A program made the translations under genes and the position numbers. From Kineosporia mesophila (GTDB taxonomy: Bacteria; Actinomycetota; Actinomycetes; Actinomycetales; Kineosporiaceae): 64,000 nt of DNA. Location: NCBI RefSeq assembly GCF_021129235.1, contig NZ_JAJOMA010000033.1, positions 1-64,000 of the forward strand, in the 5' to 3' direction. Every line of letters begins with the position of its first letter. Position 1 is the first letter of the stretch. The notes beneath the pieces are model-generated. The model saw only the letters and a program-made list of their open reading frames with translations. It was not told the origin of the DNA and searched no databases. Positions 57 through 63,313 of this stretch are shown here, one piece after another.

Positions 57-76
57 TGCATGATCACGGAGGGGGA
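57..76 (+). repeat. Solo half-unit of dispersed palindromic repeat
   Basis: Contains TGCATGATCACGGAGGG, matching the distal part of the half-unit found complete at 21461-21485. It lies just before the first nucleoside hydrolase gene and is degenerate: the GGGGAGG part is missing. Assignment rests on the shared TGCATGATCACG core and intergenic position. Confidence 0.5.
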
Positions 77-1176: not shown

Positions 1177-1203
1177 GGGGAAGGTTTGCATGATCACGGA
1201 GAG
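1177..1203 (+). repeat. Solo half-unit of dispersed palindromic repeat
   Basis: GGGGAAGGTTTGC followed by ATGATCACGGAG: a near-complete half-unit between the convergent ends of the nucleoside hydrolase and the acetyltransferase. Compared with the copy at 21461 it differs in the AGGTT spacing and the terminal GAAC. Confidence 0.7.
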
Positions 1204-7828: not shown

Positions 7829-7846
7829 AGGTTGACATGATCGCGG
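7829..7846 (+). repeat. Degenerate repeat half-unit
   Basis: AGGTTGACATGATCGCGG resembles the end of the copy at 41278-41297, which reads AGGTTTTGCATGATCGCGG. It lies between the start of the sulfatase and the cobalt-ATPase remnant. The match is partial, so confidence is low. Confidence 0.3.
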
Positions 7847-8317: not shown

Positions 8318-8480
8318 AGGGCCGAAGTCTCCTGGCTTCCCGGACCGAAGCTCGCCCCGGCCTGGTCGGACAGGCCAGGGCACGGCGTGGGGCCTGCTCC
8401 CGGTGGCAGTGGCGGGACCGCGCCGGATTCTCACCGGCTTCCGTCACTGCCGTCGCGGTTCGTGGTCGATTGGTGGGGGA
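8318..8480 (-). promoter_or_regulatory. Cobalamin (AdoCbl) riboswitch
   Basis: On the minus strand the core elements occur in order: GGAAGCCGGTGAGAATCC, then GGCGCGGTCCCGCCACTG, a variable hairpin region, and the B12 box AGCCAGGAGAC at about 8337-8327. These match the conserved cobalamin aptamer core closely. The ends are approximate because I could not fold it. It reads toward the CbiO-like remnant, so it now appears to control nothing intact. Confidence 0.9.
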
Positions 8481-21396: not shown

Positions 21397-21485
21397 GTTC
21401 GTGATCATGCAAAACCTCCCCGGCGTTCTAGAACTCTGAAGGCCACAGTTCTAGAAGTCTGGGGAGGTTTTGCATGATCACGAAC
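21397..21485. repeat. Paired (inverted) copy of the dispersed palindromic repeat
   Basis: The left arm reads GTTCGTGATCATGC then AAAACCTCCCC (21397-21421); the right arm GGGGAGGTTTTGC then ATGATCACGAAC (21461-21485) is its exact reverse complement over 25 bases. The interior carries two TTCTAGAA palindromes that can extend the stem. It lies about 30 bp beyond the stop of the minus-strand hydrolase gene, so it could also terminate or protect that transcript. Confidence 0.9.
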
Positions 21486-21513: not shown

Positions 21514-22992
21514 TCAGAGCCGCTCGGCCAGCAGAGCCCTCACGACCCTCGGCAGCGGACGCAGCATCCACCGGGCGAAACGCCAGGCCATCTGGGTGAA
21601 CAGGGTGCCCGCGGTGCCGACGACCAGCCCGGACACGAAGGTCTGCATGGCCACGCGTTCCATCGTGAAGCCGGGTTGGACGTCGGGCCAGGACACGATG
21701 GTGACGTCGGTGATGAGCACCCGGGGGTCGGCCTCGGCGGACGAGCCGGTCACCAGCCGGGCCGTCAGCAGGTGGTCGCCGGCGCTGCCGTCGGCGAGCG
21801 CGATGTAGCGGCCCGAGGCGGGTACCGGGTAGCGCGCGAGGCTGATGAAGACGGGCACGGCGTCGAGCTCGAGCAGGATCTGCTCGGTGCCGTCACTACC
21901 GCTGACCTCGATGTCGAAGGTGATCAGCCCGTCGCCCGGCAGTAACCGCAAAACCTTGGCGGACGCGGGAAAACGCCGGTTGAGGTGCAGCTCGACATCG
22001 GTCACACGGCTGTCGCGGTGCGGGACGGGCAGGGGGCGCTGGGCGCCCATCAGCTGCTGCAGGCCGGCCCGGCGCCCGAGCACCAGGGGCTTCTTGCGGC
22101 CGCGCGAGTGGTAGTACGAGGAGAGATGGCCGACATCGGCGTCGTGCAGGGGCGACCAGCCGTACCCGACGCCGCGCGCGGCCTCGCGCACCGAGAGCGC
22201 GTACCAGTCCACGGCGTACAGGTGGGCTTCGGAAACCGCCTCGAAGAACGTGGGTCTCAGGGCGAGACCGGCGTACAGCGAGACGTCGACGACGGCCGAC
22301 ATCCCGCCCTTGCGATGGTAGGGACGGCCGAACACCGAGGCGTACGAGTCCACGAACGGGCCCTCGTCGTCGCGGGTGGGGCGGATGCGCGGCAGCACCA
22401 CGTCGATCAGGTCCGCGGCGCCGCTGAGCCGGCTGAGCCGGTTCTCCGGGGCGTCGAGCAACGTCACCTGGCGCGGGGCGCGGCCCAGGGCGGCCGCGGC
22501 GTGCACGGCGACGGCGCTGCCGTGACTGTGGCCGATGAGATGAAGCTGGGCCTGGGGGTTTTTCAGCGACTGCTGCAGGGCCGCGGCCAGGCGCCGGCCG
22601 TTGACCTGGGTGGCCTGGCGTGAACGGTGGGCCATCATCACGCCGACGTCGGTCGCGGACTCGTCGATCCACGAGTAGTGCAGCACGCAGTGGTCGGGGC
22701 CCAGCGCCTCCAGGGCCCCCAGCAGCTCCACGTGGTACGAGCTGAGGGTGCGCCCGACCGGATCGACCAGGCGCGGGTCCCAGGCCGGCAGCGCGGGCAC
22801 CAGGTCGGTGATGGCGTGCAGCCGTTCCTGCAGCCGGAAGCCGGGCTGCCAGCCGTGCACGAACACATGGACGTAGCGCTCGGTGACGCTGGACTCCTCG
22901 ACAGGATGGAATATCACCCCGTCGAAACGACTCAGCCGACGTAACGGAGTGTCCCACCCTGCTCGCGCAGCGGCACCGAATCCCAAGCGCAC
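21514..22992 (-). CDS. Alpha/beta-hydrolase with C-terminal membrane segment
   Basis: A 492-residue protein whose core holds the lipase-type nucleophile elbow LHLIGHSHGSAVAVHAAAAL (serine in GHSHG) preceded by the strand YVHVFVHGWQPG that would form the oxyanion region. A long beta-rich segment follows, and the final 60 residues contain a hydrophobic stretch (TFVSGLVVGTAGTLFTQMAW) followed by basic residues, suggesting a C-terminal membrane anchor. No signal peptide is visible. It resembles class 3 lipase or esterase-like proteins, but substrate is unknown. GTG 22992 is the longest start; a shorter start at the segment beginning RYVHVFVHG is possible. Confidence 0.7.
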   Translation of the reverse strand: MRLGFGAAARAGWDTPLRRLSRFDGVIFHPVEESSVTERYVHVFVHGWQPGFRLQERLHAITDLVPALPAWDPRLVDPVGRTLSSYHVELLGALEALGPDHCVLHYSWIDESATDVGVMMAHRSRQATQVNGRRLAAALQQSLKNPQAQLHLIGHSHGSAVAVHAAAALGRAPRQVTLLDAPENRLSRLSGAADLIDVVLPRIRPTRDDEGPFVDSYASVFGRPYHRKGGMSAVVDVSLYAGLALRPTFFEAVSEAHLYAVDWYALSVREAARGVGYGWSPLHDADVGHLSSYYHSRGRKKPLVLGRRAGLQQLMGAQRPLPVPHRDSRVTDVELHLNRRFPASAKVLRLLPGDGLITFDIEVSGSDGTEQILLELDAVPVFISLARYPVPASGRYIALADGSAGDHLLTARLVTGSSAEADPRVLITDVTIVSWPDVQPGFTMERVAMQTFVSGLVVGTAGTLFTQMAWRFARWMLRPLPRVVRALLAERL

Positions 22993-41096: not shown

Positions 41097-41210
41097 TGTT
41101 CCTTTCGGTCGCCCGACGTGACGTGACCCGGCCGGACGCGCAGACAACGGGTGGCGGCTGACCAGGCTACCGAGGCCGATGGCCGTCAGCCTGTCCCACC
41201 CACCACCCCT

Positions 41211-41297
41211 GTCGTGATCATGCAAAACCTCCCCGGAGTTCTAGAACTGTGAGACCTGGAGTTCTAGAACGCCGGGGAGGTTTTGCATGATCGCGGA
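41211..41297. repeat. Paired (inverted) copy of the dispersed palindromic repeat
   Basis: Left arm GTCGTGATCATGC then AAAACCTCCCCGG; right arm CCGGGGAGGTTTTGC then ATGATCGCGG. The interior holds GTTCTAGAAC twice (41238-41247 and 41261-41270). It lies about 40 bp beyond the stop of the minus-strand PLDc_N gene. Confidence 0.9.
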
Positions 41298-41334
41298 AGA
41301 ATGGGGTTTTCTTCGCAGCGCCCCGGCCCCAGTC

Positions 41335-41727
41335 CTAGGCGCCTTCGCCGAGCTTGCGCTCGCGCTCCTTCAGGCTCTCCTCCCACTTGCGCAGGGCCTC
41401 CTCGTGCTCTCGGTCGACGCGTTCCTGATCGCGGCGTAGCTGCTCGTCGATGACGGCGGCGTCCTGCCGGTAGGTGCCCGGGCGCTCGTACTCGGGGAAG
41501 CCGGCCGTGGCCGTCGAGCGCCACGGCACCGCGTTGCCCGCCTGCGACGGCCAGGTGCGGCCGGCCACCAGCCAGGCGATCGAGCCGATCAGGGGCAGGA
41601 CGATGATGAGGATGATCCACAGTGGCTTGGGCAGGTTCCGCACCAGCACCGGGTCGGTCTGGATGCAGTCGATGAGGCAGAAGATGAGCAGCCCCAGCTC
41701 GACGAACACCGGCAGGAACCGCACCAT
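41335..41727 (-). CDS. PLDc_N-domain membrane protein
   Basis: A 130-residue actinobacterial protein with the PLDc_N (phospholipase D N-terminal-like) module: two hydrophobic helices, PVFVELGLLIFCLIDCI and PLWIILIIVLPLIGSIAW, joined by a short loop with NLPKPLW. A charged coiled-coil C-terminus follows (QLRRDQERVDREHEEALRKW). Such proteins resemble the membrane part of cardiolipin synthase but lack the catalytic HKD domain, so the function is unknown. It starts at ATG 41727. Confidence 0.9.
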   Translation of the reverse strand: MVRFLPVFVELGLLIFCLIDCIQTDPVLVRNLPKPLWIILIIVLPLIGSIAWLVAGRTWPSQAGNAVPWRSTATAGFPEYERPGTYRQDAAVIDEQLRRDQERVDREHEEALRKWEESLKERERKLGEGA

Positions 41728-46438: not shown

Positions 46439-46470
46439 CGGGGAGGTTTCGCCTGATCACGGAAGGTTCG
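46439..46470 (+). repeat. Solo half-unit of dispersed palindromic repeat
   Basis: CGGGGAGGTTTCGC then CTGATCACGG and AAGGTTCG. It lies between the Ohr remnant and the end of the lactate-oxidase-type gene, and is preceded by TCGAACGC as in the 41268-41277 copy. Confidence 0.7.
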
Positions 46471-58456: not shown

Positions 58457-58486
58457 GAGGAGGGATTGCCTGATCACGAACAAAGG
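58457..58486 (+). repeat. Solo half-unit of dispersed palindromic repeat
   Basis: GAGGAGGGATTGCC then TGATCACGAACAAAGG, between the divergent TetR gene and a small gene, close to the likely -35 region of the latter. Confidence 0.7.
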
Positions 58487-63223: not shown

Positions 63224-63313
63224 GGGGAGGTTTTGCATGATCACGAACAAAGGATGGGGAAGCCGCCCCGCTCCGCCCCCCTGTCCCGTTCGTGATCATG
63301 CAAAACCTCCCCG
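63224..63313. repeat. Everted pair of the dispersed repeat
   Basis: GGGGAGGTTTTGC then ATGATCACGAAC (63224-63248), a 39-base GC-rich spacer, and GTTCGTGATCATGC then AAAACCTCCCC (63288-63312). The two half-units face each other through their GAAC ends, the opposite arrangement to the copies at 21397 and 41211. Confidence 0.9.

Follow-up and report, generated by a model that had tools for sequence, protein, structure and literature searches.

Repeat units in the window

The window, a stretch of 64,000 nucleotides, belongs to the genome G000, which we compared with its sister species (G005) and with the congeners G001-G004. The window carries a dispersed repeat whose half-unit, GGGGAGGTTTTGCATGATCACGAAC, was located together with its complement by a 25-mer scan allowing up to 7 mismatches. 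The units are as follows.

57-68 (+): solo core TGCATGATCACG, without inner stem; read from the sequence, missed by the 25-mer scan
1177-1201 (+): solo half-unit, diverged by 4 mismatches; G005 lacks it
21397-21421 (-) and 21461-21485 (+): full inverted element; arms of 25 bp with 0 mismatches, inner TTCTAGAAC repeats, variable loop
41210-41234 (-) and 41274-41298 (+): full inverted element; arms differ from the consensus half-unit at 2 and 3 positions
46440-46464 (+): one half-unit, with 4 mismatches, left from a decayed element; the G005 site is a complete element
58457-58481 (+): solo half-unit, diverged by 4 mismatches; G005 lacks it
63224-63248 (+) and 63288-63312 (-): everted pair, 0 mismatches in both half-units

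The original prediction had described perfect inverted pairs at 21397-21485 and 41211-41297, an everted pair at 63224, solo half-units at 57, 1177, 46439 and 58457, and a weak copy at 7829. The first inverted pair and the everted pair were found at the places given, with perfect half-units. The second pair is present at 41210-41298, but its arms are imperfect, because mismatches fall at the outer bases and one falls in the core. The solo half-units at 1177, 46439 (46440 here) and 58457 were recovered in diverged form, and at 57 the core is there but the rest of the half-unit is missing. The weak copy at 7829 lacks the core and resembles ordinary conserved sequence that G005 has as well.

The units had also been described as intergenic and mostly just past gene stops. 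According to home-made gene calls, four of the six window clusters sit 14-36 bp 3′ of a stop, and those at 58457 and 63224 lie between genes called as divergent. The element at 21397..21485 is 28 bp 3′ of the stop of a gene called at 21514-22917 (-), and its orthologous site in G005 is filled with a diverged loop; the element at 41210..41298 is 36 bp 3′ of the stop of a gene called at 41335-41727 (-), and its G005 site is filled as well. For the everted pair, G005 keeps the second half alone. TTCTAGAA occurs twice in each inverted element (21397 and 41210) and nowhere else in the window. Folding of the window elements gave z-scores of -11 to -14, whether as RNA or as DNA. An Rfam scan of 104 kb left the elements unmatched at the gathering score and returned only a tRNA and a cobalamin riboswitch, the latter at window 8327-8442 (-) with 51.1 bits. 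We also noted about 2.7 kb of extra sequence in G005 (C14:145562-148242), which adjoins the orthologue of the window element at 41210 (window 41200).

A many-copy family located behind genes

We found 64 complete inverted elements in G000, the two arms being 12-42 bp apart. A search for the 13-mer arms with up to 1 mismatch returned 263 arms (134 + 129) genome-wide, against 0 + 3 for the reversed control, and the 14-mer core TTGCATGATCACGR was present in 278 copies against 0 for the reversed pattern; the reversed pattern also had 0 matches in 1.02 Mb of stitched sequence. These results confirm that the repeat family is real, present in many copies and beyond chance.

The half-unit is made up of a fixed core (TGCATGATCACG), an inner stem (GGGGAGGTTT and GTTCTAGAAC) and a purine/G-rich outer flank. 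The commonest element reads as a 25-bp outer arm, 3 variable bases, GTTCTAGAAC and a loop of about 10 bp, followed by the mirrored GTTCTAGAAC, 3 bases and the arm; shorter forms carry a single TTCTAGAA or none, and the loop differs from copy to copy. Judged from its letters, a half-unit would not form a hairpin alone and would pair with a second, inverted half-unit. Outside the arms of 34 elements, the outward-reading strand is C-poor and G/A-rich as far as position 16-18 or so on either side, with the exception of position 5. An extended palindrome running through the outer flanks was considered and rejected, as complementarity within elements was not above that of re-paired flanks. Some arms hold a 29-bp insert, which also occurs in Streptomyces plasmids, in one of them inside a tnpB-type gene; we traced it to a short hairpin and treated it as a separate repeat. 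The hairpins of 29-32 bp in Streptomyces plasmids, which are like GTGGGGGCACCTCCCGGCCGAAGGCTGGGGGA, lie at the following positions.

L103, 2501-2532
L104, 2501-2531
L105, 2501-2529

With respect to genes, 0.70 Mb of G000 contained 45 clusters, of which 23 lay in tandem, 15 in convergent and 5 in divergent gaps and 2 inside genes, compared with 214 tandem, 57 convergent and 94 divergent intergenic gaps of at least 30 bp, all placements being based on home-made gene calls. The distance to the nearest gene 3′ end had a median of 31 bp (quartiles 17 and 76), and that to the 5′ end a median of 127.5 bp. We prefer the count of 45 clusters to this distance survey, because some loci of the latter overlap. 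With two of 45 clusters in called genes, the repeat is neither confined to a few places nor equally frequent inside genes, and its description as a dispersed, structured gene-end family stands. At the G003 gene end (L049) that is orthologous to window 46479, an unrelated long hairpin (CCACACACCCCCTAT...) was seen instead of the repeat.

A 12-bp core recurs in distantly related Actinomycetota

The invariant part of the repeat is the 12-bp core TGCATGATCACG, and the stems are lineage-specific. In G000 and G005, the information per position was about 2 bits over most of GCATGATCACG and lower in the inner stem; the stem is GGGTGGCGGGA in G013 and CGTGCAGA-like in G027. The 14-mer TTGCATGATCACGR was found 318 times in G005 and 228 times in G013, which belongs to another family, and 0-1 times in the congeners G001-G004; any copy was present in 11 of the 396 order genomes. 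A 20-mer was absent from four of the five congeners searched. The exact 12-mer reached at least 20 copies in eight of 394 class genomes (341, 288, 287, 100, 35, 29, 22 and 20 copies), and G858 is the genome with 287 copies, whereas its congener G819 had 0. When 11 short stretches around rare core matches in other order genomes were inspected, those of G027 and one of G452 looked family-like and the others background-like.

Inverted cores were found in at least 59 stretches of named genomes, among them Planotetraspora, Actinomadura, Microbispora, another Streptosporangiaceae strain and three MAG contigs. Scattered and distantly related Actinomycetota carry the core in the form of inverted pairs or mirrored arrays. 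In Planotetraspora, its mirrored arrays repeat almost exactly every 53 bp, the interval of 139 of the 168 spacings in the same direction, and are accompanied by a second conserved block, GCAGGTCGG; these arrays lie at L160, L161, L165 and L189, among others, and 53 bp corresponds to about five helical turns. Core arrays with a 41-bp period were seen in Streptosporangiaceae NEAU-GS5. There were 0 divergent placements among 32 in Planotetraspora and 16 in Actinomadura, 7 and 5 more being at locus edges, and 7 of 77 placements in G013 were divergent. In the G013 loci L106-L135, a second palindrome, AGAATGCTG...CAGCATTCT, is frequently found between the core half-units or next to them.

Neither the window element nor paired cores were found in the plasmids and viral contigs searched, and the 16-mer TTGCATGATCACGAAC was present in 9 viral contigs. 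The exact 22-mer had 0 matches in a genome contig collection that may exclude G000 and its near relatives. Five papers contain the 11-mer of the core or its complement; judged by title, none of them is on repeats.

Matched arms and inverted interiors between sister species

Most of the blocks that were aligned show about 93% identity between G000 and G005, and many element sites are filled in both. Other sites are filled in one species alone or hold a remnant in the other (G000 C1:154642 and window 1177 and 58457; G005 C1:1559779 and 1600589), so that presence/absence differences between relatives are supported. At shared sites, the arms are near-identical and the loops have diverged. Moreover, at some of them the same core base was changed jointly in both arms (C1:62214 in G000 versus 1467982 in G005), and the 29-bp insert was present in both arms of one species and in neither arm of the other (144959 versus 1543642). 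The interiors were inverted between the two species at C1:1362 versus 1406632, at 205788 versus 1604372, and in a gene-bearing copy at 144959-146089.

The identity of the inner arms was 0.789 within 52 elements versus 0.702 after re-pairing, with 0 of 2000 shuffles as high, and 0.774 versus 0.622 in 22 pairs without the commonest arm, again with 0 of 2000 shuffles, in sets which include orthologous copies and are hence not independent. There was no signal of a wobble bias toward the transcribed strand (26 sense versus 23 antisense in tandem contexts, convergent contexts being left out), so that template switching or a similar process at the DNA level explains the data no less well than selection on the RNA. 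No precise insertion junction, target duplication or transposition was seen in the G000/G005 site pairs viewed, because sites that are empty in one species differ in their flanks too.

A nuclease gene enclosed by the palindrome

The gene-bearing copy, G000 C1:144959-146089, encloses a gene for a protein of 319 aa; no other widely spaced inverted pair was seen in the G000 tiles. The protein matched AbiEi_4 above and REase_MTES_1575 below the cut-off; it had no match to DUF559 (PF04480) at E 0.001, and three Tsukamurella homologues matched DUF559 above the cut-off. The G005 orthologue lies at the same site with 92% identity and is reversed within the arms. A homologue with 47% identity was found in the unrelated genus of G027, between arrays of the core TGCATGATCACG. 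E210, D243, EYDG 254-257 and H261 are invariant in seven aligned proteins, and the N-terminus is AbiEi-type in all seven. The best solved relative, a remote one, is 3hrl 'Endonuclease-Like Protein' (E 0.0079). The nuclease genes of G000, G005 and G027 were found through inspection of the repeats. The variable inner stem, the invariant cross-genus core and this gene had all been missed by the original prediction.

A survey of flanking genes for a recurrent mobiliser showed recurrence only at orthologous sites and in small clusters; the nuclease gene, with a GC3 of 0.75, is missing from that survey because the home-made gene caller did not call it. In G013, no homologue was found beside the core repeats in 0.96 Mb (overlaps included), covering the surroundings of the 100 listed (+) copies and the whole chromosome end in which the 18 unlisted ones must lie. 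G013 is among the richest carriers and lends the nuclease link no support. The core loci examined in Planotetraspora and Actinomadura, a tiny part of those genomes, also held no nuclease homologue.

The C-terminal part of the enclosed protein is of a nuclease family related to the DUF559/Vsr-like endonucleases, such as VsrA of Caulobacter (PMC12907096), and its N-terminal part is like AbiEi antitoxins. The roles known or proposed for these relatives are mismatch repair and toxin-antitoxin control.

Several nuclease homologues in other genera are flanked by palindromes

We further compared the two flanks of the nuclease genes at 16 homologue loci. The flank-to-flank inverted-repeat score was above that of all 302 control genes from G000/G005 (maximum 16) at 10 of the 16 loci, and at 7 of 13 when the three repeat-found loci were left out, with a threshold (above the control maximum) that was chosen after the data had been seen and three positives barely above it (18, 19 and 20). 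The p value of 1.3e-9 refers to 6 of 13 versus 0 of 302, the final count being 7 of 13. The maximum for 18 neighbour genes from the named loci was 13.

Palindromes other than the core family wrapped three of five homologues in Tsukamurella, all three in Arthrobacter and the single one in Collinsella. Each of the three positive Tsukamurella genes has a palindrome of its own: L265 and L267 each have one hairpin repeated on both sides of the gene, and the gene of L268 lies between the arms of one hairpin. In Arthrobacter, L269 has hairpins of the same family on both flanks, L266 and L270 have a 65-66-bp match between the flanks, and L266 shows a clear hairpin upstream only. Below the threshold were Tsukamurella L273 (11) and L295 (10), Nonomuraea (13), a faecal phage record (15) and a viral contig (8) (together L264, L271 and L272), and G013 L259 (14), which has palindromes of the same type on both sides despite its score. 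The Collinsella aerofaciens plasmid 6 record (L294), from a different class, the Coriobacteriia, contains five hairpins of the TGTCTCRATCTGTAACA family, three before and two after the nuclease-family gene.

These palindromes recur in their hosts: by BLAST counts that take both strands, so that the number of sites may be about half, that of L265 was found at 20 places in 8 records, that of L267 at 12 places in 9 records, that of L268 at 6 places in 4 records, and a relative of that of L270 at 38 places in 2 records. All 11 inspected copies of the Tsukamurella palindromes are 3′ of a gene stop, and in seven cases the neighbouring genes converge; six of the 11 had been chosen for having no gene under the match, and the five added later, with an annotated gene there, overlap it by a few bases at the gene end. 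The association between nuclease and palindrome is strong as a correlation; a mover role for the nuclease is inferred.

A model for the spread of the palindromes

We propose that the repeats are non-autonomous REP-like palindromes, which are probably spread in trans by a palindrome-borne AbiEi/DUF559-type nuclease and not by a transposase; we give this reading a probability of about 0.5. Two inverted half-units would form a hairpin or a cruciform behind a gene stop. The candidate mover is the AbiEi/DUF559-type protein whose gene lies inside some of the palindromes, with a putative DNA-binding winged helix and a PD-(D/E)XK-like nuclease. This nuclease may recognise the core or the stem and may cleave either the folded palindrome, as hairpin or cruciform, or a target located 3′ of a gene. 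Repair templated by a palindrome copy would then give the target an insert or convert it, and switches of template inside the palindrome would both preserve the match between the arms and turn the interior round. The insert would be tolerated at gene ends and may also serve there as a terminator or as a 3′ mRNA structure.

More tentatively, such palindromes could be selfish elements found throughout the Actinomycetota, which either encode or depend in trans on a palindrome-specific AbiEi/DUF559-type nuclease, and whose hairpins would be copied to gene ends by cut-and-template repair without a transposase. Each lineage would have its own nuclease-palindrome pair, and several pairs per genome would be possible; we regard this generalisation as conceivable, with the balance somewhat against it. 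A nuclease wrapped in the local palindrome is a testable mover candidate for palindromic repeats with no known mover, such as the CGTC-tagged REPs (PMC3733652), and the conserved core is a simple handle for finding such systems. If the model is true, there is another kind of REP-associated gene beside the RAYTs, and a role is suggested for the sparsely described AbiEi/DUF559-type proteins. Among the literature matches listed, no report linked AbiEi/DUF559-type nucleases to palindromic repeats.

Comparison with known systems and alternative explanations

The element works like a REP, being short, dispersed, palindromic and situated 3′ of genes, and copies of the repeat flank an associated gene. 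GTAG-tagged REPs, BIMEs and REPINs are described in PMC3733652 as extragenic palindromes that lie mostly behind genes, often as head-to-head dimers, some copies of which flank a RAYT gene. The many extragenic copies behind genes and the enclosed gene are shared features, and the similar size, head-to-head pairing and general likeness to that account would favour movement by a RAYT (Y1 HUH) transposase, as the original prediction had suggested. However, a PF01797 (Y1/RAYT) profile search had no match in G000 (0 of 1) or in G005, G013, G027 and G003 (0 of 4), whose assemblies are 92-100% complete, while the same search was positive in 5 of 14 control genomes. The tag here is a 12-bp core, the enclosed gene is that of an AbiEi/DUF559-type nuclease, and the unit, as read from its letters, does not appear to be a stem-loop in itself, let alone one with a GTAG or GGAG tag. 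The repeat is therefore not of the GTAG/RAYT type, since it lacks the two defining features tested (the Y1 gene and the GTAG/GGAG-footed stem-loop unit), and we consider RAYT mobilisation highly improbable. CGTC-tagged REPs, according to PMC3733652, have a fixed short tag, species-specific stems, a position at convergent or unidirectional gene ends and no known transposase. The fixed tag, lineage-varying stems and gene-end position are alike here, but the CGTC REPs have stems of 8-9 bp, compared with 25-40 bp formed from two half-units around the core TGCATGATCACG. The main text of PMC3733652 nowhere contains the word stem 'actinobacter'. The arms might otherwise be the terminal inverted repeats of an IS, that is, classical MITEs moved by a DDE transposase encoded elsewhere. 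The inverted termini, the short interior without coding capacity and the presence/absence between species fit such elements, as do two transposase-like genes between inverted half-units in G013, which by ORF reading are IS3-like (L149, 16235-17804) and ISL3-like (L151, 2305-5558). Other spaced core pairs in G013 enclose unrelated genes. The widely spaced G000 pair, however, holds the nuclease gene and not a transposase, no parent IS with these ends was found in the regions read, and no family of flanking genes recurs widely; the tandem and mirrored 53-bp arrays of Planotetraspora are also unlike IS ends, and the co-varying arms set the repeat apart from MITEs. We find a MITE origin improbable.

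The palindromes could instead be gene-end terminators or mRNA 3′ structures, multiplied by ordinary recombination and kept by selection, with the nuclease genes hitchhiking or landing there preferentially. The gene-end position in every lineage read, the very stable folds and the unrelated long hairpin at one same gene end in G003 speak in its favour. The core, however, is identical letter by letter across families, beyond the need of structure, the 20-mer is absent from four of the five congeners searched, the wobble mismatches have no strand bias, and the flanked nuclease genes carry a palindrome on the 5′ side too. We regard this explanation as unlikely, though it deserves serious consideration. 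It has also been considered that the core is a recognition site for another purpose (a DNA uptake signal, a site for a protein of the nucleoid or of partition, or a self-mark that protects the site from the nuclease), whose copies would be gained by drive. A strict 12-bp core amid variable surroundings and the near-helical array periods of 53 and 41 bp point in this direction, and uptake sequences also make inverted pairs at gene ends. Uptake sequences, however, are far denser and lie inside genes as well, whereas the 12-mer reaches 341 copies in 7.8 Mb and two of 45 clusters are in called genes, and within a genome conservation extends past the core into the stem; a recognition site of this kind therefore seems quite improbable to us.
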